From assembly GCF_024707525.1 (NCBI RefSeq), contig NZ_CP062231.1, positions 2,108,001 to 2,172,000 of the forward strand: a stretch of DNA of 64,000 nt, written 5' to 3'. This document shows positions 14,747 through 48,963 of this stretch, in pieces (position 1 is the first letter of the stretch; each line of letters starts with the position of its first letter). Made by a program: the position numbers and the translations under genes. The DNA comes from Rhizobium sp. TH2 (GTDB taxonomy: Bacteria > Pseudomonadota > Alphaproteobacteria > Rhizobiales > Rhizobiaceae). A model generated the notes under the pieces. The model was not told the DNA's origin and made no database searches. It worked only from the letters and a program-made list of their open reading frames with translations.

Positions 14747-16318
14747 ATGACACAACGAGCGACAGCACAGCGGGCTATGGTGAGCGACGATCTCCGGCGC
14801 GGCGCCTGTCCAACGCTGTCTGCGCCGATGCCGACCGGTGACGGCCTGCTCGCCCGCCTGCGGCCGCTGGATTGTCTGATCACCACCGCCGAGCTTCGCG
14901 CCATCGCCGAGGCGGCCGCGGAATTCGGCAACGGCATTCTAGAAGTCACCGCCCGGGGAAGCCTGCAGATCAGGGGCCTCAGGCCCGAGACGGTCGCACC
15001 GTTCGAGCGTGCTGTGCTGGCTTCTGGCATCGTCCCGGCCAGCGGCGTGATGGTCGAGGTGCCGCCGCTTGCCGGCATCGATTTCAGTGAAGTGATCGAT
15101 CCGCGCCAGCTGGCGCGAAAAATCCGGCAGGCGATCGAGACCCATGTCCCGCCGCTCGTGCTGGCGCCGAAACTGGCAGTTATCGTGGACGGACGCGGGC
15201 GGTTTCATCTCGGCGATGTGACAGCCGATGTAAGGCTGACGGCGATCGATGAGGAGAAGTTCCTGCTTGCTGTCGGTGGCACCAATCGCACGGCGCGGCC
15301 GATTGCTGTGGTAAGCGCGGATGGGGCGGTCGCTGCGGTCATCCGCTTGCTCGAAGAGATTGCCGAAATTGGGCCGATCGCCCGGGGCAGGGATGTGGAT
15401 CTCACGGGGCTCGATAGTCTCCATGAGCCGTCGGCAAATGAAATTTCGGTTCATCGTGACGTCGAGCCTTTCCTCGGCATTCGCGATCTTGGCACACCCC
15501 CCTCTGTCCTGCCGGACATCTCCCCCTCAAGGGGGGAGATCGACTCGTGGGGCTCATTCGCTCCAGACGCGCCGCTTGGTGCAGTTCTACCCGGTATACT
15601 GGCCCCGAACCTGGCCAGGAAGTCGATTGAGGCGGGGAGCGTACTCCACCCAATCTCCCCCCTTGAGGGGGAGATGTCCGGCAGGACAGAGGGGGGTATT
15701 CCGGATGCAGAGCGTGGTGAAAACCACATCCTCGGCATCGCCTTCCCGTACCGTCAGGCAAACGCCGACGATCTCATCGCTTTCATCGACACAATTGAAA
15801 CAATTGGCATTTCCGAAATCCGCCTATCACCTGCGCACGGCTTCTTCCTAACCGGCCTTTCCCCCGATGCAGCCCTCCAAGCCGAAGCCGCCGCCCGCCG
15901 GCACCACTTCTGGACATCCTCCAACGACCCCCGCGCCAATATCGCCCTCTGTTCCGGCACATCAGGCTGCGCGTCCGCCTTCTACGACACGCGTGCCACC
16001 GCCGAAGCCCTGCGACGACACGCGCCCGCACTGCTCGACGGCTCCCTCGCCATCCACCTCTCCGGCTGTGCCAAGGGCTGCGCCCATCCCTCCGCCGCAC
16101 CGCTGACGCTTGTCGGTGCGCCATCAGGCTACGGCCTTGTCGTAAATGGTGTCGCCTCCGCCAAGCCCGCCCACTACATTGCCGCAAAAGACTTGGGAAT
16201 CGCCGTGGAAAGGCTTGCGTCCCTCGTGGCAGGCGCTAAGGAAGCGGGCGAAACCGCGCGCGATTGCCTGGCGAGGCTTGGCGCGGACCGGATTTCGGCA
16301 GCCCTCATATTGGACTAG
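14747..16318 (+). CDS. cobG: Precorrin-3B synthase CobG with an in-frame repeat insertion
   Basis: This 523-residue protein resembles a sulfite-reductase half: a first nitrite-reductase-like domain (RRGACPTLSAPM, TGDGLLARL) and cluster-binding cysteines in CSGTSGC and SGCAKGC. It uses oxygen to make precorrin-3B in ring contraction. The family is usually near 450 residues. Residues about 250-317 are encoded by a 202-bp palindromic repeat and read like repeat-derived sequence (DISPSRGEI, ISPLEGEMSG). The frame stays open through it and all later cysteines are present, so the enzyme may still work. The ATG at 14747 has GGAAGG three bases upstream; an ATG at 14777 is the alternative. Confidence 0.88.
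   Translation: MTQRATAQRAMVSDDLRRGACPTLSAPMPTGDGLLARLRPLDCLITTAELRAIAEAAAEFGNGILEVTARGSLQIRGLRPETVAPFERAVLASGIVPASGVMVEVPPLAGIDFSEVIDPRQLARKIRQAIETHVPPLVLAPKLAVIVDGRGRFHLGDVTADVRLTAIDEEKFLLAVGGTNRTARPIAVVSADGAVAAVIRLLEEIAEIGPIARGRDVDLTGLDSLHEPSANEISVHRDVEPFLGIRDLGTPPSVLPDISPSRGEIDSWGSFAPDAPLGAVLPGILAPNLARKSIEAGSVLHPISPLEGEMSGRTEGGIPDAERGENHILGIAFPYRQANADDLIAFIDTIETIGISEIRLSPAHGFFLTGLSPDAALQAEAAARRHHFWTSSNDPRANIALCSGTSGCASAFYDTRATAEALRRHAPALLDGSLAIHLSGCAKGCAHPSAAPLTLVGAPSGYGLVVNGVASAKPAHYIAAKDLGIAVERLASLVAGAKEAGETARDCLARLGADRISAALILD
15496..15697. repeat. RIME-like palindromic repeat inside cobG
   Basis: A perfect 45-bp inverted repeat (15496-15540 and 15653-15697) flanks a 112-bp spacer. Each arm is itself part palindrome (CTCCCCCTCAAGGGGGGAG). 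The outer ACCCCCCTCT and the CATCTCCCCCTCAAGG core recur at 39653-39818. This is the architecture of rhizobial intergenic mosaic elements, but here it lies within coding sequence and is translated. Confidence 0.9.
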
Positions 16319-35802: not shown

Positions 35803-36999
35803 TCAATCGAGATATTCGAAGCTTTTCGTCACCTTGAACTTACGTTTCTCCGCCTCGGCGAAGAAGTCCGCGGCTTCAAAATACCCCTCAGGGGCATAGA
35901 CGCCCGGCTTCCTCGGGTGCTTCAGCAAAAGCTGCACGGCGATCGAGGCGCACATCGACGTACAGGCATCGACATAGCCGTCATACATCGGGTCAGGCGT
36001 CACAATCACATCGCAACGCGCCATCGCCGGCCGGCCGTTCTTCTTTCCCCGGCCGATCGCGAAGTGGATTTCGTGGCTGTCCTGTGCCGGTATTTTGTCG
36101 GCGTTCTTCTCGATATTTCGCTGGATAACTTTCGCCAGTACATCGAGCGGCTTCACAGCAGCGCCCCCAATCTCGACCGGCTCGTTGAAGTCGCCGAATC
36201 CCGCCTTCACCAGCCCGACCCACGCCTCGTGCTCGCGATGCGGCAGGTGGAGCTTCCAGGTGAATTCCTGGATACCCTTCTCGGCGATGCCCTCTGCCAG
36301 CGGCACGGTGAGCTGCTCGGAATGCGGTGAATACATGAACTCGCAACGGCCCCAGGGTTCAGGCAGGTCGATCACTTCGACACCGGTCATAGGCGCGCAA
36401 CTCACATGCCGGCCGTCGAGGAACTGCGTCGATGGATGCGCATATTCCGCAAGCACCGTGGAGACGGAATAGGGCGGCACCAGCACCGGATTTTCCGGCC
36501 CCACCAGTTCGGCTGCCCAGTAGAGATTGATCTTCTCGATTGCGTCGAGTTCATCGGCTACCGCCCGGCAGATCACGTTCGACAGGCCGGGATCGGCACC
36601 GATCCCGGTGATTGCGGTCATGCCGGCCGCCTTGAACCGCTCGTTCTCGGCGATCTGCTTGACGGTATACGTGCCTAGTCCGCCGAGATCGACATAGGGC
36701 ACGCGTGCCTCAAAGGCTGCCTCGAAGATCACCATCTGGTGACCCGCCAGGGTGGGCACGCAATTGACACAGATATCGGCACCCGTGATTGCAGCGGCGA
36801 GCTTGGCCGGGTTGGTAACATCAAGATCGACCAGGTCGAGCCTCGGGTCGCCGAGTTCATTGACCAGCGCCTCCATGCGCGGCGGCGACGTATCGCAGAT
36901 GCGAATCGTCGTGATGTTGATGATGGCCCGATCCGAGATCATGTCACGGACGATACCCGCCCCCATGAAGCCCGCGCCGCCGAGAATGGTGATGATCAT
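35803..36999 (-). CDS. Saccharopine dehydrogenase-family NAD(P)-binding oxidoreductase
   Basis: A 398-residue protein with an N-terminal Rossmann motif (ITILGGAGFMGAGIVRDM) and a C-terminal substrate domain typical of saccharopine and carboxynorspermidine dehydrogenases (GIGADPGLSNVICR). These enzymes join or split an amino acid and a carbonyl through an imine. It is the last gene of the leftward ten-gene operon, 18 bp after the aldehyde dehydrogenase gene, which fits reversal or formation of an amine-amino acid conjugate. Confidence 0.8.
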   Translation of the reverse strand: MIITILGGAGFMGAGIVRDMISDRAIINITTIRICDTSPPRMEALVNELGDPRLDLVDLDVTNPAKLAAAITGADICVNCVPTLAGHQMVIFEAAFEARVPYVDLGGLGTYTVKQIAENERFKAAGMTAITGIGADPGLSNVICRAVADELDAIEKINLYWAAELVGPENPVLVPPYSVSTVLAEYAHPSTQFLDGRHVSCAPMTGVEVIDLPEPWGRCEFMYSPHSEQLTVPLAEGIAEKGIQEFTWKLHLPHREHEAWVGLVKAGFGDFNEPVEIGGAAVKPLDVLAKVIQRNIEKNADKIPAQDSHEIHFAIGRGKKNGRPAMARCDVIVTPDPMYDGYVDACTSMCASIAVQLLLKHPRKPGVYAPEGYFEAADFFAEAEKRKFKVTKSFEYLD

Positions 37000-37017
37000 G
37001 ATGAAATTCCTGAAAAA

Positions 37018-38535
37018 TTAGACATGCTTTCGCCCGCCGGTCTCGTAAAACCAGTCGTCGGGATAAGGATACCACCAGCCCTGCCGCACCGGTTTGTGGT
37101 CGATGATCACCATCTTCGAGCGGCGGAAGGCATCCAGCCCGAGGCGTGAAAGCTCGCGACCCATGCCGGAACTCTTCCAGCCGCCAAAGGGCAGGGCGTC
37201 GTTGTCGATCATCGGGTTGTTGACCCAGACCATGCCGCTTTCGAGCCGCTCGGCAGCTTCCATCGCTTCTTCGAGCGAGGTGGTGAAGACCGAGGCGCCG
37301 AGGCCGAAGGGGCTGTCATTGGCGCGCTCGATTGCTTCTTCGAAGTCCCGCACCTTCATGATCGGCGCCACGGGGCCAAAACATTCCTCCCGCATGATCG
37401 CCATATCCATGGTCACATTGGTGAGGACCGTCGGCTCGTAGAACCAGCCGATGGGCTGGTCGTCGGGTATCTTGCCGCCGCAGACGACGGTCGCGCCCTT
37501 GGTCCTTGCGTCCTCGACGAGGCGGATCACTTTGGCGCGCGCCGCCTCGCTGACCAGTGGACCAAGCTCCGCCTTGTCGAGGCCATTGCCGATGCGCAGC
37601 CGCAGTGTTTCGGCCTTGAATGCCGCGACGAAGGCGTCATGCACATCCTCGACCACGAAGAAGCGCTCGGCCGAGGTGCAGACCTGGCCCGTCAGATGGA
37701 ACGCTGCCGTGACGGCACCAGCCGCCGCGACATCGATCGGCGCATGTTTGGTAATGATCATCGGGTCGGAACCGCCGGCTTCGATGACAGCCGGTTTCAT
37801 CTGCGCCGCCGCCGCCGAAGCGACCGCCTTGCCAGCGGCGACCGAGCCGGTGAAGGCGACGGCATGGGTGAGGGGCGAGGCAATCAGCGTCTGGGCAATC
37901 TCGGCGCCGCCAGGCACGCAGGCGATTAGCCCCTCGGGCAGCGCCTCGAACACTTCCATGAATTTCAGCGTCGAAAGCGTAGTCGCCAGCGCCGGCTTGA
38001 TAATGCATCCATTGCCGGATGCGAGGGAGGCCGCGACCGTCCAGCACATCAGCAAAACAGGGAAATTGAACGGCATGATGTGGACGGATACGCCGACCGG
38101 CTCGTAGCGCGCATATTGGAACGACCCGGCCTGCGTGGTGCCGGCCACCTTGCCCGCCTCGTCGCGTGCCATCTCGGCGAAATAGCGGAAGGCGCCGGCG
38201 CAATTGGCCACCTCGCCGATCGCCTCCGGATAGGGCTTGCCCTGCTCTCGCACCATCAGTTCGGCGCAGCGGCGCATGTCAGTGGCTTCGATCTTGTTGG
38301 CGACGCGGTGGAGGATCGTCGCGCGCGTCTTCGCGTCGATCAGCTTCCATTGCCTCTGCGCCACATTGACCCGCCTTAGCACTGCATCGAGTTCATCCGC
38401 CGTCGTATCGGCGAGCTGGCCCTCGACGGCTAGCGTCGCGGGATTGACGATGTCCATCAGCTTTCCGCCCGACGAAATGTAGGATGGATGAAGAAAGTGC
38501 ACCGGCCTGCCGGGATCGAACGCCTCAGTGCTCAT
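37018..38535 (-). CDS. Aldehyde dehydrogenase
   Basis: A 505-residue NAD(P)-dependent aldehyde dehydrogenase: cofactor-binding FTGSVAAGKAVA, catalytic Glu in VIEAGGSDP and catalytic Cys in TGQVCTSAERF. It oxidises an aldehyde to its acid in the cytoplasm. Its ATG overlaps the stop of the third cupin gene as ATGA. With an amine importer in the same operon, an aminoaldehyde such as 4-aminobutanal is a reasonable but unproved substrate. Confidence 0.92.
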   Translation of the reverse strand: MSTEAFDPGRPVHFLHPSYISSGGKLMDIVNPATLAVEGQLADTTADELDAVLRRVNVAQRQWKLIDAKTRATILHRVANKIEATDMRRCAELMVREQGKPYPEAIGEVANCAGAFRYFAEMARDEAGKVAGTTQAGSFQYARYEPVGVSVHIMPFNFPVLLMCWTVAASLASGNGCIIKPALATTLSTLKFMEVFEALPEGLIACVPGGAEIAQTLIASPLTHAVAFTGSVAAGKAVASAAAAQMKPAVIEAGGSDPMIITKHAPIDVAAAGAVTAAFHLTGQVCTSAERFFVVEDVHDAFVAAFKAETLRLRIGNGLDKAELGPLVSEAARAKVIRLVEDARTKGATVVCGGKIPDDQPIGWFYEPTVLTNVTMDMAIMREECFGPVAPIMKVRDFEEAIERANDSPFGLGASVFTTSLEEAMEAAERLESGMVWVNNPMIDNDALPFGGWKSSGMGRELSRLGLDAFRRSKMVIIDHKPVRQGWWYPYPDDWFYETGGRKHV

Positions 38536-38879
38536 CGGATCATGTACACTTTCTTGATCGTCTCATGCACGGTGCAGACGCCCTTCCAGTCCTTCGGAAA
38601 GAACGCTGCCGTATCCGGCGTGATCTCGATCACGTCGCCGCTTTCATGCACATAGGTGCTGCGGCCCTCGAGGAAATGGCAGAATTCGTCGCGTGTCACA
38701 TGGCATTCCCACTTGCCGGGCGTGCAGATCCACAGGCCGCATTCGCTCTCGCCGTTCGGTCCCTTGTGGATCAGTTTGCCGGAGACATGGCTGACGCCCT
38801 CGATCATCGTTGGGATCGTCCCCCAGTCGACAAGCTCGGCCTGCTCGAGCGGCTTCTTCATGGATGGTGCGGTGCTCAT
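38532..38879 (-). CDS. Cupin-domain protein, copy 3
   Basis: A 115-residue single-domain cupin of the DUF861/ureidoglycine-aminohydrolase-like group: ECGLWICTPGKW, RDEFCHFLEG and the C-terminal HETIKKVYM. It is a paralogue of the two cupins upstream. The family is used for small-molecule binding or metal-dependent turnover. It lies 23 bp after copy 2 and overlaps the aldehyde dehydrogenase start. Confidence 0.85.
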   Translation of the reverse strand: MSTAPSMKKPLEQAELVDWGTIPTMIEGVSHVSGKLIHKGPNGESECGLWICTPGKWECHVTRDEFCHFLEGRSTYVHESGDVIEITPDTAAFFPKDWKGVCTVHETIKKVYMIR

Positions 38880-38902
38880 TGGCGTGTTTCCTGTTATTGT
38901 CG

Positions 38903-39244
38903 TCAGCGGCTCATGAAGGCCTTGGAGAGCGTTTCGGTGATGATCGAGCGGCCGCTCCAGCCCTTGGGAAAGAACACGATGGCGCCAGAATGGACCGGGA
39001 TTTCCTCGCCATTATCATGGACGTAAGACCCCTTGCCGCCGAGGAAATAGCAGAACTCGTCATTCTCGAAGACAAGCGTCCGCTCACCCGGCGTGCACGA
39101 CCAGATACCGCATTCGCTGGAACCATCGGCATTGACCGACAGGATTTTTCCATGCGCATGCGGCGCGCCTGAAATCGCCGTCTTGGAGAGGCCCCAGTCC
39201 TCCATCTCAACGTTTTTGTGATCGGGCCAGTTCGGTGTGGTCAT
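38903..39244 (-). CDS. Cupin-domain protein, copy 2
   Basis: A 113-residue cupin starting at ATG 39244 (a TTG two codons earlier is less likely; GAGG lies ten bases before the ATG). It shares ECGIWSCTPG, DEFCYFLGG and a VHDNGE stretch with the other copies. It is the most divergent copy: the RDEFC of copies 1 and 3 is NDEFC and the C-terminal HET is TET. It lies 12 bp after copy 1. Confidence 0.84.
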   Translation of the reverse strand: MTTPNWPDHKNVEMEDWGLSKTAISGAPHAHGKILSVNADGSSECGIWSCTPGERTLVFENDEFCYFLGGKGSYVHDNGEEIPVHSGAIVFFPKGWSGRSIITETLSKAFMSR

Positions 39245-39256
39245 TCTCAAAAATCC

Positions 39257-39619
39257 TCAAACAAGCATGTAGATGTTGCGCATGGTCTCATGCACGGTGC
39301 ATTCGCCGGTCCAGCCCGCAAGAAAAGTCACGGCAGTGCCAGGCGTGACCTCGATCACCTCGCCATTGTCATGCCGGTAGGTCGCCCGCCCGGCGACGAA
39401 ATGGCAGAACTCGTCGCGCGGTATCGTCAGCCGCCAACGGCCCGGGGTGCAGACCCAGATGCCGGTTTCCGGCTGGTTGTTCGGTCCCTTGAACAGCAGC
39501 CGGCCGGAGGAATGCGACTGACCCTCGACCATGTCGGGCTGACTGCCCCAATCTACAAGGTCGCCATAGGTCGTGGCATTATGGATGTGCGGGGCGGTGG
39601 ATTTGAGGGTGTTGGTCAT
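39257..39619 (-). CDS. Cupin-domain protein, copy 1
   Basis: A 120-residue cupin with ETGIWVCTPGRW, RDEFCHFVAG, YRHDNGEVIEV and HETMRNIYM. It is closest to copy 3. Three tandem copies in one operon suggest distinct but related substrates or a hetero-oligomer. The 204-bp gap to the glycosyltransferase gene upstream is filled by a palindromic repeat. Confidence 0.85.
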   Translation of the reverse strand: MTNTLKSTAPHIHNATTYGDLVDWGSQPDMVEGQSHSSGRLLFKGPNNQPETGIWVCTPGRWRLTIPRDEFCHFVAGRATYRHDNGEVIEVTPGTAVTFLAGWTGECTVHETMRNIYMLV

Positions 39620-39652
39620 CGTGATACCCTCAAATCATTGCGCATCGTGATT

Positions 39653-39818
39653 ACCCCCCTCTGGCCTGCCGGCCATCTCCCCCTCAAGGGGGGAGATTGG
39701 ATGGAGTGGGCTCCCTGCCTCTCAACAGACGCAGCAGTTAGATTGAGGTGCCAGCCGCGCCACGAGTCTCCAATCTCCCCCCTTGAGGGGGAGATGTCAC
39801 GAAGTGACAGAGGGGGGT
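39653..39818. repeat. RIME-like palindromic repeat between glycosyltransferase and cupin genes
   Basis: A perfect 27-bp inverted repeat (39674-39700 and 39770-39796) lies inside outer 10-bp inverted ends ACCCCCCTCT/AGAGGGGGGT. A nested GTCAC-GAA-GTGAC hairpin sits in the right arm. It shares core sequences with the element inside cobG but has a different spacer and left-arm part, as mosaic elements do. Confidence 0.9.
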
Positions 39819-39823
39819 GAGCC

Positions 39824-41113
39824 TCAACCATTGTACTTCCCCGTCTTCACCAGCTCATCCAGAACCTTCGCCGCCTTCTGCGGCCCATTCTGCACCTGCA
39901 TATTCTTCGACGTCGCCTTCAGTTTCGCCTGCATCGCCGGATCGTTGATCATGAAGTCGAGCTTCATGGCCAGTTCCTCATCGGTCCAGTCGTAGCGTGG
40001 GAACTTGAAGCCGTGGCCGGTTTCGTCCACGCGCGTCGCATTATCATGACCGTCCCAGACATAGGGCATGATGATTGCCGGTTTGCCGAAATAAAGGCAC
40101 TCCGTAAACGAGTTGTTGCCGCCATGATGGATCACGGCATCGACCTGCGGAATGACCGACGGCTGCGGAAACCAGCTGTCGATCACCACATTGCCGGGTA
40201 CGTCAGCATACTCACCCTTGTAATCGCCGACATTGACCAGCGCTCGGTACGGCAGCTTGCCTATGGTTGATATCAGCCGCTTCAGCAGGTCCGTGTCGCC
40301 CGCGCCCAGCGAGCCGAAGGATATGTAGATCAGCGGCTTGTCGTTGTTCGCGGCGAAAGTCGGCACCGCGTAAGGCGCTTCCTTGCGCACGCAGCCTTCG
40401 AGATACTGGAACTGTTTTGGGTCGAGCGGATGCTCGCGATCGAATTTCACCGCCTCCGGATAGAGCAGCAGGTTCATGAAGGGCGAAGCCTCGAAGAACT
40501 GGCCGATCGGATAGGCCGCTTCGCCGGTCGAGGCGAGGAAGTCGTTGTAATCGTCATGGATCGGCTTGATCACCGCATTGAAGTGATCGCGATAGGCCTT
40601 GTGCCCGGCATGGTCGTCCTGGCGGCAGCCGGAGAGATGTGGCGGGATGTTGTCGTCCTCGATCTCGTTTTCCGAGCAGGAGATGATCCGCACCCAGGGC
40701 TTGCCGAAATGCTTGATCGCCGGGAACAGGATGACGTTGTCGACGCAGATCAGGTCCGGCTTGATTTTTGCAAGCACGCCGGGCAAATCCTTTTCCGCCC
40801 ATTTTGCGCTATCGACGATCGCCGTCCAGCAATCTTTCACGTAATTGTCGATCTGATCGTACGGGCTCTTGCGGAAATTCGGGATATGGCCGTTGATGAA
40901 ATCCTCCCAGAATTTCGCCATCTGCTCCGGCGGCATCGGCTCGGAAAGGTTCACCGGATGCGCCTCGAAGCCATAGCCCTCATAGACCGACACGAAGCCC
41001 GGATCGGACAGGAACACGGCCTTGTGGCCGAGCGCCTCGACGGCCTGGGCGATACCCACCGAGTTCAGCGCCGGGCCGAAGGCGGCCTCCGGAAAGAATG
41101 CTATTTTTGCCAT
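39824..41113 (-). CDS. UGT-like glycosyltransferase (GT-B fold), paralogue 1
   Basis: A 429-residue protein with the GT-B C-terminal nucleotide-sugar site: DSWFPQPSVIPQ, HHGGNNSFTECLYFGKP and WDGHDNATR. It resembles macrolide, flavonoid and zeaxanthin glycosyltransferases. The ATG at 41113 with an AGAAGGA site gives the MAKIAFFPEA start shared with the paralogue at 46214. It lies 17 bp after the ABC ATPase gene, so it belongs to the transport operon. Acceptor and donor are unknown. Confidence 0.87.
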   Translation of the reverse strand: MAKIAFFPEAAFGPALNSVGIAQAVEALGHKAVFLSDPGFVSVYEGYGFEAHPVNLSEPMPPEQMAKFWEDFINGHIPNFRKSPYDQIDNYVKDCWTAIVDSAKWAEKDLPGVLAKIKPDLICVDNVILFPAIKHFGKPWVRIISCSENEIEDDNIPPHLSGCRQDDHAGHKAYRDHFNAVIKPIHDDYNDFLASTGEAAYPIGQFFEASPFMNLLLYPEAVKFDREHPLDPKQFQYLEGCVRKEAPYAVPTFAANNDKPLIYISFGSLGAGDTDLLKRLISTIGKLPYRALVNVGDYKGEYADVPGNVVIDSWFPQPSVIPQVDAVIHHGGNNSFTECLYFGKPAIIMPYVWDGHDNATRVDETGHGFKFPRYDWTDEELAMKLDFMINDPAMQAKLKATSKNMQVQNGPQKAAKVLDELVKTGKYNG

Positions 41114-41130
41114 GTGGTGTCCTTCTCCAA

Positions 41131-42177
41131 TCAGTAAATCCGGCATTTGGCGGCATCGAGGGCGATCATGATCGCCTGGCCGGCAGCATACTTCTGGCCC
41201 TCGGCGGCACTCAGCCGAAGCTGCAGCGGCTGGCCGGACGCCACCGTCTTCGCATGCAGCACCCGGTCGAGCCCGTGATAGGCGATGTCGGTGATGATAA
41301 CGCCCAGCCCATCGGCGCGTTCGGTGATGCGCACATGCTCGGGCCGCACCGCAAGCGTCGCCTTACGCGGCCCGTGGCGCACTGCAATCGGATGCCTGCT
41401 GCCATCGACGACGAAGGCGTGAGTGCCATCGATCTCGCCGTCGAGGAAGTTCATGATCCCGATGAAGTTCGCCACGAACCGGTCACTCGGTTCCTCGTAG
41501 ATCTCCTCCGGCGTGCCGGCTTGCAACAGCTTGCCGTCCTTAAGGATCGCCATCCGGTCGGCCATGACAAGCGCCTCCTCTTGGTCGTGGGTGACGATGA
41601 TGAAGGTGATGCCCGCCTCATGCTGCAGGCGCTTGAGTTCGAGTTGCATCCGTTCGCGCAGCTTCTTGTCGAGCGCGCCGAGCGGCTCGTCGAGTAGCAG
41701 CACTTTCGGCCGCTTCACCAGCGCGCGCGCCAGCGCCACGCGCTGCTTCTGTCCACCGGAGAGCTGGTCAGGCTTGCGGTCGGCCAGTGCCGTCAGGTCC
41801 GTCGAGGCCAGCGTTTCGTCTACCCGCGAGCGGATCGTTTTCCTCGGCAGCCGCTCCATTTCCAGCCCATAATTCAGGTTCTGCCGCACTGTCATATGCG
41901 GAAACAGCGCATATGACTGGAACATGAGGTTGAGCGGCCGCTTCTCAGGCGGCAGCGGCGAGATGTCCTTGCCGGATAACAGGATTTGCCCAGAATCCAG
42001 TGCCTCGAAGCCTGCCAACATCCTGAGCAGCGTGGTCTTGCCGCAGCCGGATGGGCCGAGAAGCGCGAAAAACTCGTTCTCGTGGATATCGAGGCTCACG
42101 CCATCCACGGCGCGCGTCTTGCCGAAAGACTTGGCGACCTGGTCGATCCGGAGCAAGGGCATCGGGCTGTTGGTCAT
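41131..42177 (-). CDS. ABC transporter ATP-binding protein, polyamine type
   Basis: A 348-residue ATPase of the PotA class: Walker A GPSGCGKTTLLRML, signature LSGGQKQRVALARAL, Walker B VLLLDEPLGALD, then a C-terminal TOBE regulatory domain (LAVRPEHVRI). It drives uptake through the two permeases. The ATG at 42177 overlaps the permease stop (ATGA). An upstream start at 42201 is less likely. Confidence 0.93.
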   Translation of the reverse strand: MTNSPMPLLRIDQVAKSFGKTRAVDGVSLDIHENEFFALLGPSGCGKTTLLRMLAGFEALDSGQILLSGKDISPLPPEKRPLNLMFQSYALFPHMTVRQNLNYGLEMERLPRKTIRSRVDETLASTDLTALADRKPDQLSGGQKQRVALARALVKRPKVLLLDEPLGALDKKLRERMQLELKRLQHEAGITFIIVTHDQEEALVMADRMAILKDGKLLQAGTPEEIYEEPSDRFVANFIGIMNFLDGEIDGTHAFVVDGSRHPIAVRHGPRKATLAVRPEHVRITERADGLGVIITDIAYHGLDRVLHAKTVASGQPLQLRLSAAEGQKYAAGQAIMIALDAAKCRIY

Positions 42178-42953
42178 GCTTTTTGTTCCCGGTTCAGCCA
42201 TTGCGAGATGAGGAGGATGGTGGCGGAGAGGCCCATGACTAGGGTGGCGAGCGCGTTGATCTCGGGCGTGATGCCGAAGCGGATCATCGAATAGATCTGC
42301 ATCGGCAGCGTGATCGAGGCGCGGCCGGCGCCCGCGGTGAAAAAGGCGATGATGAACTCATCGACCGAGAGCGTGAAGGCGAGCAATCCGCCGGCGATGA
42401 TTGCCGGAAGGATGACCGGGAAGGTGACGCGCCAAAAGCTCGTCCAGCCCGACGCCCCGAGATCGCGCGAGGCTTCGACCAGCGAATAGTCAAAACTCTT
42501 CAGCCGCGCCCGCACCACCGAGCAGACGAAGGCGAGGTCGAAGATGACATGGGAAAGCACGATCGTGTGCAGCCCAAGCGTGATATTGAGCCGCGACAGC
42601 AGGCTAAGCAGCGCCACGGCGAGCACGATGTCGGGTATCACCATCGGCGCGAAGGCGAGTGCTTCCAGCGTATTCGACTTCCGCCGCCGCGCCTCCATGC
42701 CGAGCGCCAGCATCGTGCCGAGCACCGTGGAGATCAGGGTGGCAAAGATGGCGACGATCAATGTATTCCAGGCCGCATGCAGGATTTCGGCATTGCCGGC
42801 CAGCGACGTGTACCATTTGGTGGAAAAGCCCGACCAACTGGTCGGCAAGCCGCTTTCGTTGAACGACAGCAGCACCAGCACAGCGATCGGCAGATAGAGG
42901 AAGCCGAACACGAGGATCAGCACGATCCGGCGGGAGAGGGCAGCACTATGCAT
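42174..42953 (-). CDS. ABC transporter permease, PotC type
   Basis: A 259-residue inner-membrane protein with about six helices and the EAA loop (EASRDLGASGWTSFWRVTFP) that contacts the ATPase. The start ATG at 42953 overlaps the end of the first permease gene by 8 bp; a longer start at 42983 is also open. It is the second half of a heterodimeric channel. Confidence 0.92.
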   Translation of the reverse strand: MHSAALSRRIVLILVFGFLYLPIAVLVLLSFNESGLPTSWSGFSTKWYTSLAGNAEILHAAWNTLIVAIFATLISTVLGTMLALGMEARRRKSNTLEALAFAPMVIPDIVLAVALLSLLSRLNITLGLHTIVLSHVIFDLAFVCSVVRARLKSFDYSLVEASRDLGASGWTSFWRVTFPVILPAIIAGGLLAFTLSVDEFIIAFFTAGAGRASITLPMQIYSMIRFGITPEINALATLVMGLSATILLISQWLNREQKA

Positions 42954-43812
42954 CGTCGCGGTTCCCACGGTCGCCCGATGCATGCGAGGTGGCGCGCGCC
43001 TGGATCATCAGCAGCACGATCATGACGGCGATCAGCGCCATGCCGAGGGCAGCACCGAACGGCCAGTCATTGGCGGTCAGGAATTGGTCGTAGACGAGAT
43101 TGCCAATCATCTGGAAGCGCCCGCCGCCAAGCAATGCCGGCGTCACGAAATTGCCGATCGACAGCACGAACACGAAGACGCCGCCGGCCGCGACGCCGGG
43201 AAGCGTCAACGGCAGCGTCACCCGGAAGAAGGTGCGCACGGCGCCGGCGCCGAGATCGCGCGAGGCCTCCATCAGTTCAGGATTTAGCCGGCTAAGTGTC
43301 GAGTAGATCGCCAGGATCACGAAGGGCAGGTAATTGTAGACGAGACCGGTGATGACCGCGCCCTCGGTATAGAGCATCGACAGCGGCTCGCCCTCGTAAC
43401 CTAGCGCCCGCAGCAGGTTGTTGAACAGGCCCTCGCGATTGAGCAGCACGATCCAGGCATAGGTGCGGATTAGATAGTTCGACCAGAACGGCAGCACCGC
43501 GAAGAACAGCAGGATCGGCTGCCAGCGCTGCGGCGCCTTGGCGATGGCATAGGCCGCCGGATAGCCGATCATGATGGCGAAGAAGGTCGCGGTCAGCGCG
43601 ATCCGGGCGGAGTTGAGAAAGATCTTCGCGTAGAGCGGATCGACGACGCGTTTGAAATTGTCGAGCGTGAAACTGTACTCGATGCCCCCGAACATGCCCC
43701 GCTCGAAGAAGGCGTAGACGAGGATGAGCACGCATGGCAGCACCATGAACGCGACCAGCCAGATAATGGCCGGGGCGGCAAGCAGGTTCGGCTTTGCGGC
43801 GTTGAAGGACAT
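42946..43812 (-). CDS. ABC transporter permease, PotB type
   Basis: A 288-residue permease with about six helices and an EAA loop (EASRDLGAGAVRTFFRVTLP). The ATG at 43812 gives the natural start MSFNAAKPNLL. A longer frame reaches into the palindromic repeat and its extra N-terminus is repeat-encoded. The ribosome-binding site is weak. The repeat at 43855-43983 separates it from the substrate-binding protein gene. Confidence 0.92.
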   Translation of the reverse strand: MSFNAAKPNLLAAPAIIWLVAFMVLPCVLILVYAFFERGMFGGIEYSFTLDNFKRVVDPLYAKIFLNSARIALTATFFAIMIGYPAAYAIAKAPQRWQPILLFFAVLPFWSNYLIRTYAWIVLLNREGLFNNLLRALGYEGEPLSMLYTEGAVITGLVYNYLPFVILAIYSTLSRLNPELMEASRDLGAGAVRTFFRVTLPLTLPGVAAGGVFVFVLSIGNFVTPALLGGGRFQMIGNLVYDQFLTANDWPFGAALGMALIAVMIVLLMIQARATSHASGDRGNRDDA

Positions 43813-43854
43813 TTGGTTCAGTTCATTTCGGTTGGAAGATTGCTGCTCAAGATC

Positions 43855-43983
43855 GCCCCTCATCTGCCTGCCGGCATCTTCTCCCCGCAAGCGGGGAGAA
43901 GGAGGGCTGGGGGCGCCCACACCACCACGAGTCCCTTCTCCCCGTCAAAACGGGGAGAAGATGCCGGCAGGCAGATGAGGGGC
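43855..43983. repeat. Palindromic repeat within the ABC transporter operon
   Basis: A perfect 33-bp inverted repeat (43855-43887 and 43951-43983) around a 63-bp spacer with further inner complementarity (CTCCCCG/CGGGGAG). It is a different subtype from the elements at 15496 and 39653. It lies 12 bp after the binding-protein stop and 42 bp before the permease start. Confidence 0.9.
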
Positions 43984-43995
43984 ATTCGCGGGCTC

Positions 43996-45057
43996 TTAGT
44001 TCGCCGCCTTGATCTCGCTCACAGCTTTCGAATAGTCCTTCATCGAGGCGCCGAGATCGCGCAGCAGCTCATACTTGACCAAGTCGGCCGCGGGCACGCC
44101 CATGGTCGGATATTGCTTGGCGAGCGCCGGATCGAGGCTCTCCATCGCCGGCTTGTTCGGTACGTTGTAGAGAATGTTACTCGCCGCCCAGGCGTGGTTC
44201 TTGGCGTCGAGGATGAAGTTGATGAACTTCATCGCGGCGTCCTTCTTCTCCGAGCTCTTCATCACAACGATCGTATCGACCCAGAGGTCGGAGCCTTCCT
44301 TCGGCACCACGAACTTGATGTCCTTGTTCTCGGTGATGCCGTAGTTGCACCAGCCATCCCAGGCCTGCACCAGTTGCGCTTCGCCGGACACCAGCTTCGA
44401 ATAGAAGGTCGTGTCGTCATAGGCGAGCAGGGTCTTCTTGGCCTCGATCAGCTTGTTCTTGGCTGCGTCGATCTTGGCCGGGTCTTTCTCGTTGACGGAA
44501 TAGCCGAGCGACAGAAGGCCTGCCGCCATCAGCCAGCGGTCGGTCGCCAGCATGGTGGTTTTGCCCTTGAGCGCGGCGTCCGGCGTCAGCAGCGCGTTCC
44601 AGCTGTCGACCGGGGCCTTCACGAGGTCGGAGCGGTAGCAGAGCCCGGTCGTGCCCCAGGTATAAGGCACCGAATAGGCATTGCCCGGGTCGTAGGCGAG
44701 CGCGGCTGCTTCCGGATAGAGATTGGCGAGATTGGGGATCGCGGCCTTGTCGAGCGGCTCGGCCAGGCCTTGACCATTGAGGATCTCGGCAAACGGTGAG
44801 GAGACGAAGACGACGTCGTAGCCTTTGCCGCCGCTCGCCATCAGCTTGCCCATGATCTCTTCATTGGTGGCATGGTTGACGACCTCGATTTCGAGCCCGG
44901 TCGCCGCCTTGAAGGTCTCGGCAATATCCTTGGCCATGTAGCCATCCCAATTGGAGATGACGAGGTCGGCGGAAAGCGCGGATGACGCGCTGAAGGCGAG
45001 GCCGGCCACTACGGAAATCGCGGCAACACCGGCACGAAGCTTTAATGAAACGGTCAC
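43996..45057 (-). CDS. ABC transporter periplasmic substrate-binding protein, PotD type
   Basis: A 353-residue protein with signal peptide (LRAGVAAISVVAGLAFSASSALS, cut near residue 30) and a type II periplasmic binding fold (LVISNWDGYMAKD, YDVVFVSSPFAEIL, SVPYTWGTTGLCYRSD). These motifs match the spermidine/putrescine-binding class. It is the first gene of the leftward operon and diverges from the GntR gene with 217 bp between. Amine or similar cationic substrates are likely by family. Confidence 0.9.
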   Translation of the reverse strand: MTVSLKLRAGVAAISVVAGLAFSASSALSADLVISNWDGYMAKDIAETFKAATGLEIEVVNHATNEEIMGKLMASGGKGYDVVFVSSPFAEILNGQGLAEPLDKAAIPNLANLYPEAAALAYDPGNAYSVPYTWGTTGLCYRSDLVKAPVDSWNALLTPDAALKGKTTMLATDRWLMAAGLLSLGYSVNEKDPAKIDAAKNKLIEAKKTLLAYDDTTFYSKLVSGEAQLVQAWDGWCNYGITENKDIKFVVPKEGSDLWVDTIVVMKSSEKKDAAMKFINFILDAKNHAWAASNILYNVPNKPAMESLDPALAKQYPTMGVPAADLVKYELLRDLGASMKDYSKAVSEIKAAN

Positions 45058-45143
45058 GGATTTTCTCCCGGTTGTCTGGATCTGTTGGTTCCCGAAACGG
45101 CATGCCGGTATCCCGGTCTCTTGGTCCGCTTTTGAAGTCGGCA

Positions 45144-45165
45144 GTATTATTTATAAAAAAAATAC
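45144..45165. promoter_or_regulatory. Inverted repeat in the divergent promoter region
   Basis: GTATT and AATAC arms flank an AT-rich centre between the transporter operon and the GntR gene. It is a candidate operator for the adjacent GntR protein. The arms are short, so the call is tentative. Confidence 0.35.
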
Positions 45166-45274
45166 GTCAACCATGAATCGGCATTGGCTTGAATATTTCT
45201 GTTAACCTCTTGCGTGAAGCGGTGCAAAGAGGCAGCATGCGGGCACTCTTCAGGAGCTGGAAGCAACCGCTGAT

Positions 45275-46204
45275 ATGGAAGAATCCACCGGCAAGGTCCG
45301 CCACCGCCATGTCGAATTGGCGCAGAAAATACTCGATTTCGCGATCGAGCGCGGCCTGCCGCGCGGCGGCAGACTGACCGAACAGGTTCTCGCATCGCAT
45401 TGTAATGTCTCGCGAACGCCGATCCGAAAGGCACTCCAGCTGCTCGCCGAGAAGAACATCGTCAGCCCGGAGCCGGAAGGCGGCTATCAGCTCGCGATCG
45501 ACCCGGCATCCTTTCCGGGGTTGGGGGACGAAGCGCTTCCGGCCGAGGAAACCGAACTCTACAACGCCATCCTGCGCGACATCTCGGCCGGCCGCATCGG
45601 CGATTCCCAAACGGTCGCCGGCCTGCAGCGCCGCTATGGATTCTCCCGCAGCGCGGTACAAAACGCGCTGATCAAACTGTCCGAGGAAAATCTCGCCGAG
45701 CGCGCACCCGGCCAGCAATGGCTGATCAAGCAGTTTGCCATATCAGGTGACGCGGTGGCGAAATCCTATGAATTCCGACTCGCCTGCGAGCCTTTGGCGT
45801 TGACCATGCCGGGGTTCCGGCGCGACGGCTCCGCGCTCACCTCGCTCCGGCAATCCATGGAAATCCTGCGCGGCATGGGCGAGGGCGCTTTCGACCAGAA
45901 GCTCTTCGAGCGCACCGACCATGATTTCCATATGCTGATCGCGCGCTCATGCGGCAATCCCTTCATGTCGGAGACGCTTGCGACCCACCATCGCCGCCGC
46001 AAGACCTCGCAGCCGCCGATGCATGTCAACGCTTTCCGGCTGATCCAGTCGAACATGGAGCACCTTCAGATATTGGAACAGATCGAGCGCGGCCAGTTCG
46101 ATCTCGCCGCCGATCTCTTGCGCGTCCATATCCAGCTCAGCCATGTCGAGCGGCCGCGTCTGGCCGGTCGCGGCGTGCCGATCGCCTTCCGGATCGCGGG
46201 ATAG
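45275..46204 (+). CDS. GntR-family regulator with two winged-helix domains
   Basis: A 309-residue protein with two successive winged-helix segments: residues about 10-70 (CNVSRTPIRKALQLLAEKN) and about 90-150 (GFSRSAVQNALIKLSEENL), then an FCD-like helical C-domain. Most GntR proteins have one. It is divergent from the amine-type transporter operon and followed 9 bp later by the second glycosyltransferase gene, so it probably controls both in response to the transported compound. Confidence 0.85.
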   Translation: MEESTGKVRHRHVELAQKILDFAIERGLPRGGRLTEQVLASHCNVSRTPIRKALQLLAEKNIVSPEPEGGYQLAIDPASFPGLGDEALPAEETELYNAILRDISAGRIGDSQTVAGLQRRYGFSRSAVQNALIKLSEENLAERAPGQQWLIKQFAISGDAVAKSYEFRLACEPLALTMPGFRRDGSALTSLRQSMEILRGMGEGAFDQKLFERTDHDFHMLIARSCGNPFMSETLATHHRRRKTSQPPMHVNAFRLIQSNMEHLQILEQIERGQFDLAADLLRVHIQLSHVERPRLAGRGVPIAFRIAG

Positions 46205-46213
46205 CGTGAAGGC

Positions 46214-47485
46214 ATGAGCGAGCAGAAAGTCATCGCCCTGTTTCCTGAAGCGAGTTTCGGCGCCGCACTCAATTGCGTCGGCATCGCCCAGGAGCTTCGT
46301 CGGCTTGGCGCCCGCCCGGTCTTCGTCTGCCAGGAGAATTTTCGCGGCGTCTTCGCCGAATATGGGTTCGCCGAATACAGCCTCGTATCAGATACCAATG
46401 GCGGCGAGGCCAACTGGACGGATTTCATAAACCGCCACAAGGATGCGTTCCGCCAGTCGCCGCTCGAACAGATCACCAGCTATGTCGTGCCGACCTGGGA
46501 TGCGATCGTCGATACGGCCATCAAGGCCGAGGAGCCGCTCAAACGCCTCATAGCCCGGATCAAGCCAGATGCGATCGTCCTCGACAACGTCGTGATGTTT
46601 CCGGCCATCGCCAATGCCGGCGTGCCATGGGTGAGGGTGGTCTCCTGCGCCGAAACCGAGATCCCCGACCCGGCAGTCCCTCCCTACCTTTCGGGCTACG
46701 GCGCCCAACCGGGCAAGGATTGGACGGCCTTTTCATCCCGCTTTGCGCGAGAGGTTCAGCCCATCCACAAGCGCATGAATGCCTTCCTTGCGGAGTGTGG
46801 CCTCAAGCCTTATCCGCTCGACGAATTCCTCGAGGCGTCGCCGCATCTCAATCTGCTGCTCTCGCCGGAGATCGTCCGTTTCGATCGCCAGGAAAAACTC
46901 GATCCGGCAAAGTTCATTTATCTCGATGGCTGTGTAAGGCAGGAAGCACCATACGCACTGCCCACTTTCGCCGCACAAAATGACAAACCGCTGGTGCTCA
47001 CATCCTTCGGCAGCCTCGGCGCCATGGATGTGGCGATGATCCAGCGGATGATTTCGGTGTTTGCGACGCTGCCCTATCGCTTCGTCGTCAATGCCGGCCC
47101 GTGGCGCGACGATTACGGCAACGTGCCCGACAATGTGGTGATCGAGAGCTGGTTCCCGCAGCCGTCGCTGGTGGAAAAATCCTCGGTCTTCATCCATCAC
47201 GGCGGCAACAATTCCTTCTGCGAGGCGCTCTATCACGGCGTGCCGTCGCTGGTCATGCCCTATTGCTGGGACGGCCACGACAATGCCACGCGCGCGGCGG
47301 AAACGGACGTCGGCGTGAAGCTGCCGCGCTACGATTGGCGTGACGAAGAGCTTGCCACGGCCATCAATCGCCTTGCCACCGATACGGCCATGCGCACAAA
47401 ACTCGGAGAGAACGCAAAGTCGATGCGGAAGGCCGCCGGCGTCACGCTGGCCGCGAAGTCGATCCTCGACCTCGTAAAGACATAA
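46214..47485 (+). CDS. UGT-like glycosyltransferase, paralogue 2
   Basis: A 423-residue GT-B protein clearly homologous to the one at 39824-41113: same MSEQKVIALFPEASFG-type start, SWFPQPSLVEK, HHGGNNSFCEALYHGVP and WDGHDNATR. The two share most C-terminal motifs but differ in the acceptor half, so they may use one sugar donor on different acceptors. It is the second gene of the GntR transcript. Confidence 0.87.
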   Translation: MSEQKVIALFPEASFGAALNCVGIAQELRRLGARPVFVCQENFRGVFAEYGFAEYSLVSDTNGGEANWTDFINRHKDAFRQSPLEQITSYVVPTWDAIVDTAIKAEEPLKRLIARIKPDAIVLDNVVMFPAIANAGVPWVRVVSCAETEIPDPAVPPYLSGYGAQPGKDWTAFSSRFAREVQPIHKRMNAFLAECGLKPYPLDEFLEASPHLNLLLSPEIVRFDRQEKLDPAKFIYLDGCVRQEAPYALPTFAAQNDKPLVLTSFGSLGAMDVAMIQRMISVFATLPYRFVVNAGPWRDDYGNVPDNVVIESWFPQPSLVEKSSVFIHHGGNNSFCEALYHGVPSLVMPYCWDGHDNATRAAETDVGVKLPRYDWRDEELATAINRLATDTAMRTKLGENAKSMRKAAGVTLAAKSILDLVKT

Positions 47486-47507: not shown

Positions 47508-47921
47508 TTACGCCGCCATTTCACCATCGAATTCCACGCGCGCCCGTTTGATCGTGTCGTGGTTCTGCGCTGCCCAATTCACCAGCGCCACCAAGGGCTT
47601 CGAGAAACTTTCGCCCAGTTCGGTCAGCTTGTACTCCACGCTGGGCGGCTGGGTCGGATAGACCGTCCGGCTGACATAGCCGTCCCGCTGAAGGTCGCGC
47701 AGCGTCTGGGTCAGCATGCGCTGCGAGATATCCGGCACACGCCTGCGGATCGCGCCGAAGCGTAGCGGGCCGTCGATCAGTTCCAGCATCATCAGGATCG
47801 ACCACTTGCCGCTGATATGGTCCATCACGTCGCGCACCGGGCAGTTCGCCGGCGTGAAGCCGTATTTCTCGAACGCCTCGCGCCGCGAAATCGGCAATCC
47901 GTGTTCGTCCAGAACGGTCAT
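47508..47921 (-). CDS. HxlR-family transcriptional regulator
   Basis: A 137-residue winged-helix protein with the family Cys and motif NCPVRDVMDHISGKWSI and DGPLRFGAIRRRVPDISQRML. Such regulators sense aldehydes, quinones or oxidants, often through the N-terminal Cys. It is divergent from the quinone-reductase-like gene, the usual YtfH/YtfG-type pair, which it probably represses. Confidence 0.92.
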   Translation of the reverse strand: MTVLDEHGLPISRREAFEKYGFTPANCPVRDVMDHISGKWSILMMLELIDGPLRFGAIRRRVPDISQRMLTQTLRDLQRDGYVSRTVYPTQPPSVEYKLTELGESFSKPLVALVNWAAQNHDTIKRARVEFDGEMAA

Positions 47922-48078: not shown

Positions 48079-48963
48079 ATGGCACAGAAACTTCTCGTCA
48101 CCGGCGCCTCCGGCAAGCTCGGCAAACTCGTTCTCGACGCATTGCTCAAGCGCGGCGTGGCGGCATCCGACATCATCGCCACCAGCCGGGACACGGCGAA
48201 GCTCGCAGATTACGCGGCCAAGGGAATCGAGATCCGCAAGGCCGATTTCAACGATCCGGATTCGGTCAAGGCGGCCTTCGCCGGTGCCGACCGCGTCGCC
48301 ATCATCTCGACGGACGCGCTGGATGGCGCAGGCACCCGTATCAAGCAGCACACGAGCGCGGTGGCCGCGGCCAAAGCCGCCGGCGTCAAGCACATCGTCT
48401 ACACGTCAATGCCGCAGCCGGACAACACCAAGGTCATCTTCTCGCCCGATCACCTGAAGACCGAAGAAGCCGTCAAGGCCTCCGGCCTTGGCTACACCAT
48501 CCTGCGCAACACCTGGTATCAGGAAAACATGTTCATGAGCCTGCCGCAGGTGCTGGCATCGGGCCATTGGTACACATCGACGGGCGAGGGCAGGATCGCC
48601 CATGTCGCCCGCGCAGACTGCGCCGAGGCGATTGCCGCTGCACTCGCTTCCGGTTCCGAGGAAAAGGCGACCTATACCCTGACCGGTTCGGAAGCCCGCA
48701 CGACCGCCGAAATCGCCGTTCTGGCCAGCGAAATCACCGGCAAGCCGATCGAGGTCATCCAACTGAACGACGAACAACTCGCCGGCGGCATGAAGGCGGC
48801 CGGCGTGCCGGATTTCCTGATCCCGACGCTTATCAGCTTCGAGGCCGCCACGCGTGAAGGCGATCTCGCCGCACTCACCGGCGATGTCGAGACGCTGACC
48901 GGAAGGAAGCCGAAACCGTTCCGCGCGTTCTTCGAAGAGAACAAGGCGGCTCTCGCAGGCTGA
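48079..48963 (+). CDS. NmrA-like NAD(P)H:quinone oxidoreductase
   Basis: A 294-residue atypical short-chain dehydrogenase with KLLVTGASGKLGKLVLDALL at the start and the ASDII/VYTSMPQ segments of the QorB/YtfG type. It likely reduces quinones or related electrophiles with NADPH. It is divergent from the HxlR gene, implying induction by reactive compounds. Confidence 0.88.
   Translation: MAQKLLVTGASGKLGKLVLDALLKRGVAASDIIATSRDTAKLADYAAKGIEIRKADFNDPDSVKAAFAGADRVAIISTDALDGAGTRIKQHTSAVAAAKAAGVKHIVYTSMPQPDNTKVIFSPDHLKTEEAVKASGLGYTILRNTWYQENMFMSLPQVLASGHWYTSTGEGRIAHVARADCAEAIAAALASGSEEKATYTLTGSEARTTAEIAVLASEITGKPIEVIQLNDEQLAGGMKAAGVPDFLIPTLISFEAATREGDLAALTGDVETLTGRKPKPFRAFFEENKAALAG

Follow-up and report, generated by a model that had tools for sequence, protein, structure and literature searches.

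A conserved glycosyltransferase-cupin-aldehyde dehydrogenase gene set of rhizobia and haloarchaea: a candidate amine-catabolic module with a proposed temporary sugar cap

Introduction

In the Puu (gamma-glutamylputrescine) pathway an amine is taken up, given a temporary cap and oxidised to an aldehyde, which passes to an aldehyde dehydrogenase (ALDH) before the cap is released. The glycosyltransferases (GTs) of family GT1 commonly serve in detoxification, and those GT1 enzymes that lack the catalytic histidine are known mainly as drug and cytokinin enzymes; human UGT1A4 has Pro40 and UGT2B10 Leu34 at this position. Here we describe a locus of Rhizobium sp. TH2 in which relatives of these systems occur side by side, i.e. 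a Pot-type importer, two histidine-less GTs (GT_A and GT_B), small cupins, an ALDH and a saccharopine-dehydrogenase-clan enzyme (SDH). It lies in a stretch of 64,000 nucleotides, called the window below (G000:C1:2108001-2172000, from a genome of 6.44 Mb in four contigs).

An earlier note on this DNA had described ten genes on the minus strand, a divergent GntR regulator with two GntR stretches and a second GT, and we found all twelve genes where it had placed them, with two starts adjusted. It knew of no named pathway with this set. Our own literature search found no description of the gene set either, a search that was limited and left most subscription journals outside. We suggest, as a tentative reading with somewhat less than an even chance, that the locus is an amine-catabolic module which uses a temporary sugar as a protecting group; the gene linkage and the residues are observed, and the chemistry is what we infer from them.

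Results

Conservation of the gene set

The main comparison was made with the best 80 of 438 related stretches, so that it is biased to close kin, and only loci with enough flank were counted. Downstream of GT_A, the cupin genes cup1 and cup3 were each found in 76 of 76 loci and ALDH in 75 of 75, which bears out the suggestion of the earlier note that the ALDH is part of the pathway. The transporter genes are almost as constant (ATPase 79/80, perm2 78/79, perm1 77/78 and the solute-binding protein, SBP, 77/78), as are GntR and GT_B (76/77 each); L080 is the single locus without transporter, GntR and GT_B. The three cupins named in the earlier note are all in the window, but cup2 is present in only 26 of the 76 loci, therefore two cupins and not three are invariant in this sample. 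At the level of residues, at least 97% of 77 rows agree with the window at 76 of the 115 positions of cup1, and Glu252 and Cys286 of ALDH are kept in all 75 rows.

A further 19 loci, fetched for their GT match and with GTs down to 52% identity, bring the total to 99. In these the GT adjoins a cup1-type cupin in every case (19/19), a module-type ALDH is found in 12, and the full transporter is present in 11 and not in 8. On these tallies we regard GT-cupin as the minimum unit and GT-cupin-ALDH as the usual core. The gene set is not due to chance. The earlier note had proposed a search for it in other genomes and had tied the GTs to the pathway; the linkage of GT and cupin proved consistent, and the loose linkage that would speak against such a tie was not seen.

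The GT_A-type genes are patchily distributed, with matches in 21 of 151 relatives at E 1e-30 (17 of them with at least two matches), in 13 of 385 genomes drawn from the class and in 11 of 398 drawn from the phylum (both at E 1e-12, three of the latter being short partial matches); the window's own genome is counted in each of these figures. All nine listed genomes of its genus have at least two GT_A-type matches. The best GT_A match in the relatives is 74-93% identical, and the closest named kin among the matches listed (the best 120 of 968) are Rhizobium strains. One further match listing comprised the best 120 of 2965.

Haloarchaeal and plasmid occurrences

Plasmids of the haloarchaea Natronorubrum aibiense and Natrialba magadii carry GT, cupin and ALDH in the same order, with 59-60% identity to GT_A, 57-63% to cup1 and 59% to ALDH. 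Around both trios a ROK kinase, a phosphohexomutase, FAD oxidoreductases, class III-type aminotransferases, a glutamine-synthetase-family gene, a type 1 amidotransferase and Pot-type transporter genes are annotated. The families were tested for the Natronorubrum kinase and mutase and for the Natrialba ligase, amidotransferase, oxidases and aminotransferase. GlnA-2 of Haloferax mediterranei, which belongs to the same family as the ligase of the haloarchaeal locus, is described in an excerpt of PMC8394153 as a glutamate-putrescine ligase.

Among the plasmids searched, cup1 matches and module-type GTs coincide fully: each was found in 11 records, and these are the same 11. A more distant GT (27-38% identical to that of Natronorubrum) is carried by five other plasmid records, none of which gave a cup1 match at E 1e-15, and the one annotated region examined among the actinobacterial GT neighbourhoods is without a cupin.

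Glycosyltransferases without the catalytic histidine

GT_A and GT_B are 52% identical over 424 residues, and they are the only matches to the UDPGT family in the genome at E 0.001. Both exceed the Pfam UDPGT cut-off of 19.5 bits (48.2 and 43.9 bits, respectively), and a fold search confirmed the GT-B fold for GT_A. The macrolide glycosyltransferase model MGT (TIGR01426) was not reached by GT_A (101.2 bits, cut-off 260). The closest solved structure in this GT1/MGT-type family is the spider-mite UDP-glycosyltransferase (UGT) UGT203A2 (7lvy), from which the module GTs differ by three traits, i.e. no catalytic histidine, Asp-Gly for Asp-Gln at the donor site, and an acidic motif SENE or AETE.

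Complete alignment rows for GT_A and for GT_B were obtained from 76 of the 80 loci each, which gives 77 rows per protein with the window. The catalytic histidine in the first loop is found in none of the 77 GT_A rows and none of the 77 GT_B rows, proline or alanine standing in its place. This site aligns free of gaps with the histidine of UGT203A2, CalG1 and YjiC; for UGT202A2 HMMER inserts a gap. The Asp/Glu-Gln pair of the donor site is likewise absent, as Asp-Gly occurs in 77/77 rows of either protein and, by eye, in both archaea; CalG1 has Asp-Ser there, in other words the position can vary in active enzymes. E20, D136, E159 and E161 are invariant in the module GTs, the HGGNN donor motif is retained, and the whole GT-B fold is kept.

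In plants, loss of the GT1 catalytic histidine goes with nitrogen acceptors in UGT76C2/C3 (PMC12246196, excerpt), and the human UGT1A4 and UGT2B10 are reported to glucuronidate amines (PMC5075577, excerpt).

The closest solved structures are spider-mite UGTs, which raised the question of origin, as a bacterial ancestry has been suggested for these enzymes. We rejected a derivation of the mite UGTs from the module family, since both a search with UGT203A2 and a quick tree (with long mite branches) give the module a clade of its own. Among the best 120 of 692 matches of UGT203A2, the closest bacterial proteins named by the source belong to another histidine-less clade (38-39% identity, compared with 29% for GT_A), although closer rows exist whose origin the source does not name. 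Residues of outside GTs were compared for 26 proteins picked by hand from these 120. The second clade (P0285-P0360) includes Actinomycetes; it keeps the glutamate and Asp-Gln and is without the acidic motif of the module. It is the nearest source-named bacterial kin of UGT203A2, yet the histidine is present in 10 of 12 mite rows. Of the mite UGTs, two from Oppiella nova (P0276 and P0305) have neither the catalytic histidine (alanine and serine instead) nor the glutamate, and are candidate N-glycosylating animal UGTs.

The transporter and its substrate

The importer shares its four subunit families with the spermidine/putrescine importer PotABCD. The ATPase exceeds the cut-off of the PotA model TIGR01187 (367.8 against 355.6 bits), while its 372.6 bits for PhnT2 stay below that model's own cut-off of 457.7. 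The locus differs from PotABCD in the other subunits: the SBP reaches 141.1 bits with the PotD model (cut-off 582), and the permeases are below the cut-offs of the PotB and PotC models.

A second difference lies in the binding pocket. The acids of PotD that hold spermidine are E36, D168, E171 and D257 (PMC11414716, excerpt). The SBP keeps D257 only (as D261), and G39, T172 and W175 replace the other three in 78 of 78 rows; the aromatic residues are retained. Going by these residues, the pocket suits a ligand with a single amine more than a polyamine, and D38 or D173 may compensate in part for the lost acids. Lmo0810 and PotD are much better matches of the SBP than is the agropine permease protein 6hly.

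The earlier note had proposed Pot-type uptake of an amine-like compound. The families and the amine-chemistry partners described below agree with this, but a plain PotABCD polyamine importer does not fit the replaced acids, and we judge plain polyamine import unlikely.

In several Mesorhizobium loci (L088-L118 and L119) the module is followed by a second Pot-type transporter of remoter kinship, and others have sugar-type ATP-binding cassette genes.

Amine-oxidising partners

The SDH carries both domains of its clan by the Pfam cut-offs (Sacchrp_dh_NADP 57.2 against 25.1 bits, Sacchrp_dh_C 40.7 against 31 bits), which upholds the saccharopine-type amine chemistry suggested in the earlier note. 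For its structural model (pLDDT 78.4, the middle parts being weak) the best fold match is carboxyspermidine dehydrogenase 8deb (TM 0.81), and lysine dehydrogenase 3abi (0.73) and saccharopine dehydrogenases rank lower. The likeness to these carboxyspermidine, lysine-6 and saccharopine dehydrogenases is one of fold, yet SDH is only 15-20% identical to them and exceeds the cut-off of no NCBIfam equivalog.

SDH is found in 42 of the 80 loci and a PuuA-like ligase in 27, and no locus has both (some loci are cut short). A PuuB-like FAD oxidase accompanies the ligase in 23 of the 27; in Mesorhizobium the PuuA- and PuuB-like genes follow GT_B and SDH is absent. Other loci have flavin oxidases. No PuuA- or PuuB-like gene is among the genes of the window locus.

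The PuuA-like proteins score 186 and 250 bits with the GGputSyn model (cut-off 650). A search for gamma-glutamylputrescine synthetase gave 8 matches in the window's genome with none over the cut-off, and likewise none in 14 control genomes including E. coli; as the E. coli control itself is below the cut-off, the latter decides little.

We favour an amine as the substrate because SDH, the Puu-like enzymes and the flavin oxidases are all plausible amine-oxidising partners.

Linked sugar kinases

A gene for an AmgK-like kinase occurs in 11 of the 99 loci, and in all 11 it lies between cup1 and ALDH. In accordance with this, the gap between these two genes, which overlap by 4 bases in the window, exceeds 600 bases in 12 of the 95 stretches that have both, namely the 11 kinase loci and L140. 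On the GT_A tree, which includes six of the kinase carriers, the presence of the kinase changes at least 5 times. Four of the kinases gave 246.1, 223.1, 226.2 and 244.3 bits with the AmgK equivalog, about half of its cut-off of 500. AmgK produces sugar-1-phosphates and is encoded beside murU in P. putida (PMC5371407, excerpt), whereas the module kinases sit in an amine operon.

Both haloarchaeal records (2/2) have the ROK kinase and phosphohexomutase beside the trio, which would reach the same outcome in two steps. That the same trio is linked to two unrelated ways of turning free sugar into sugar-1-phosphate suggests that the sugar added by the GT is freed and re-activated.

Regulation

In the intergenic region between GntR and SBP a palindrome is seen at most of 77 loci: 42 have GTATT-N12-AATAC, 24 have GTACT-N12-AGTAC, 3 have a mixed form and 8 are without it. 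In 20 single-base shuffles the commonest arm pair reached at most 3 of 78 regions. The arms co-vary as for a dimer site, related loci not being independent. With the GTCAA side included, the palindrome of the window is matched exactly at one place in the genome and with 2 mismatches at three, as compared with 1 and 1 for the reversed control. The putative operator overlaps a likely promoter (TTGACG, by eye).

Layout of the locus

The features are listed in Table 1. The spacing between the minus-strand genes is -38 to +23 bases, apart from gaps of 75 bases (before perm1) and 204 bases (between GT_A and cup3), both of which contain palindromic repeats. Two pairs of one palindromic repeat with arms CTCCCCCTCAAGGGGGGAGAT lie at 39677-39793 and 15520-15673 of the window, where shuffles expect 0. 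A further palindromic repeat, seen by eye at about 43858-43980, overlaps the listed start of perm1, and the frame is open across it; since the listed start is inside this repeat we judge it too early, the true one probably being 43812. For GT_A we also consider the later start more likely.

Table 1. Genes and other features of the locus (positions in the window)
Feature	Position	Strand	Basis or location
SBP, PotD-like solute-binding protein	43996-45057	minus	SBP_bac_8 118.5 bits
perm1, PotB-like permease	42946-43920; likelier start 43812	minus	family models
perm2, PotC-like permease	42174-42983	minus	family models
ATPase, PotA subfamily	41131-42201	minus	TIGR01187 367.8 bits
GT_A, GT1-fold glycosyltransferase without catalytic His (Pro25), donor motif Asp-Gly	39824-41146; likelier start 41113	minus	
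cup3, Cupin_3 protein	39257-39619	minus	Pfam and locus comparison
cup2, Cupin_3 protein, variable	38903-39250	minus	Pfam and locus comparison
cup1, Cupin_3 protein, core gene	38532-38879	minus	Pfam and locus comparison
ALDH, aldehyde dehydrogenase, core gene	37018-38535	minus	family models and residues
SDH, saccharopine-dehydrogenase-clan enzyme	35803-36999	minus	Pfam and fold search
GntR, FCD regulator with two GntR stretches	45275-46204	plus	Pfam
GT_B, GT_A paralogue without catalytic His (Ala17), donor motif Asp-Gly	46214-47485	plus	
Putative operator GTATT-N12-AATAC	45144-45165		between GntR and SBP
Palindromic repeat pair, outside function	39677-39793		between GT_A and cup3

Just past GT_B, an HxlR-type regulator (47508-47921) is divergent from an NmrA-like NAD(P)-binding protein (48079-48963); this looks like a separate stress-response pair.

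Around the distant loci L129-L133 and L138-L140, 20 flank proteins were scanned against Pfam, of which 9 were without a match and the rest were mostly unrelated genes; the gene calls are simple open reading frame picks, some of which are possibly on the wrong strand. Pot-type ATPases lie ahead of the GT in L130 and L131, and flavin oxidases near L134 and L139. In the alphaproteobacterial L129 (66-10298) the GT-cupin pair is flanked by a Complex1_51K-type gene and a formate-tetrahydrofolate ligase, which hints at one-carbon metabolism. A contig of a metagenome-assembled genome (G005:C22, L077) has the GT_A/GT_B pair twice, the copies being inverted and separated by about 20 kb, which may be an artefact of assembly.

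Discussion

Four of the observations go beyond the earlier note: the lost catalytic histidine, the GT-cupin-ALDH core that reaches the archaea, the sugar kinases at other loci and the palindrome between the divergent genes. On this basis we propose the following course. The Pot-type importer would take in an amine, probably other than a simple polyamine, and an exchangeable enzyme would turn it into an aldehyde, i.e. SDH here, PuuA/PuuB-like enzymes in Mesorhizobium and flavin oxidases elsewhere. The histidine-less GT pair would put a hexose from a nucleoside diphosphate sugar on the amine nitrogen, or on the aldehyde or imine form, so that cyclisation or reaction of the intermediate would be blocked; the cap is probably N-linked. 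ALDH would then oxidise the aldehyde, and the cupins would process the glycosylated product, e.g. by opening or hydrolysis of a glycosylamine. The freed sugar could return to sugar-1-phosphate via the AmgK-like kinase, or via the ROK kinase and phosphohexomutase, where these are linked; elsewhere, the window included, housekeeping enzymes presumably recycle it. GntR would control both arms through a GTAyT-N12-ArTAC palindrome. Polyamine-derived aminoaldehydes are described as cytotoxic (PMC10648994, excerpt), which would be a reason for a cap.

The logic is that of the Puu pathway, whose PuuA- and PuuB-like genes stand beside the Mesorhizobium modules; the window locus has neither of them, and the GTs, cupins and sugar kinases are extra to that pathway. 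With still more reserve we raise the wider possibility that bacteria and archaea share a new pathway logic, in which an amine would be broken down behind a sugar cap placed by a histidine-less GT1 enzyme (the conserved glutamate going with the lost histidine), a cupin would remove or rearrange the glycosylamine and, in some lineages, a dedicated kinase would turn the sugar back into its activated form. Sugar would here take the part that the gamma-glutamyl cap plays in the Puu pathway.

A number of points weigh against this proposal. Substrate, sugar, N-linkage, order of steps, role of the cupins and regulation are all things that we infer. With the donor glutamine lost as well as the histidine, donor use may be altered or absent, and enzymes with cysteine for the histidine are reported to show weak O-glycosylation (PMC12246196, excerpt). 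In the plasmid set no cup1 match accompanies the histidine-less relatives from outside the module, therefore loss of the histidine alone is no sign of this pathway. The PuuA-like ligases near the module in Mesorhizobium and Natrialba could already supply an amine cap. The mutual exclusion of SDH and PuuA calls for no more than 2 changes on the tree, and we have downgraded it from strong to weak evidence, as phylogeny explains most of it. The AmgK-like gene is a minority trait that is absent from the window, three of the 11 carriers come from one genus, and the matches reach only about half of the equivalog cut-off. Seven distant loci (L129-L133, L138 and L139) hold GT and cupin without a module-type ALDH in the stretch, L139 ending at a contig end. 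Finally, both archaea belong to one family.

Other explanations have to be weighed against the same evidence. The imported compound might itself be a sugar-amine conjugate, with the GTs running in reverse or the cupins cleaving it, the kinases capturing the sugar and ALDH and SDH handling the amine part. The altered pocket of the SBP, the agropine permease protein among Pot-type binding proteins and the free sugar implied by the linked kinases are all consistent with such an import, but the SBP is far closer to Lmo0810 and PotD than to the agropine protein, kinases that give sugar-1-phosphates would fit regeneration of a donor better than entry into glycolysis, and no glycosidase family was found among the 60 neighbourhood proteins scanned, which cover part of the neighbourhoods. 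We regard it as unlikely. We also think it rather unlikely that the GTs detoxify or store, i.e. that they place an irreversible tag on a toxic amine or aldehyde, imported or arising in the cell, beside an ordinary amine catabolic operon. This role is common for GT1 enzymes and the closest solved structures are mite UGTs; a pathway step nevertheless fits better than a dead-end tag with a GT, cupin and ALDH kept together in bacteria and archaea and with a linked kinase inside the operon. The kinase linkage is our main ground for preferring a cycle to a dead end, though it concerns a minority of the loci.

The replacement of both the catalytic histidine and the donor glutamine in every module row examined could also mean that the GT-B fold has been kept and the glycosyltransferase role lost, the protein being some other enzyme (of hydrolase or epimerase type) or a binding partner of the cupin. 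As the proteins retain the HGGNN donor motif, D136 and their whole fold, and as the sugar kinases linked in some loci speak for real turnover of sugar, we hold this to be quite improbable.

If the temporary sugar cap is real, it would be a second protecting-group strategy in amine catabolism. GT1 enzymes without the catalytic histidine would have a role in bacteria and archaea, and a role for a small Cupin_3 set would be suggested. Should the mechanism prove wrong, there is still a GT-cupin-ALDH trio to explain, one that rhizobia and haloarchaea have both kept and in which the GT active site is rewritten.

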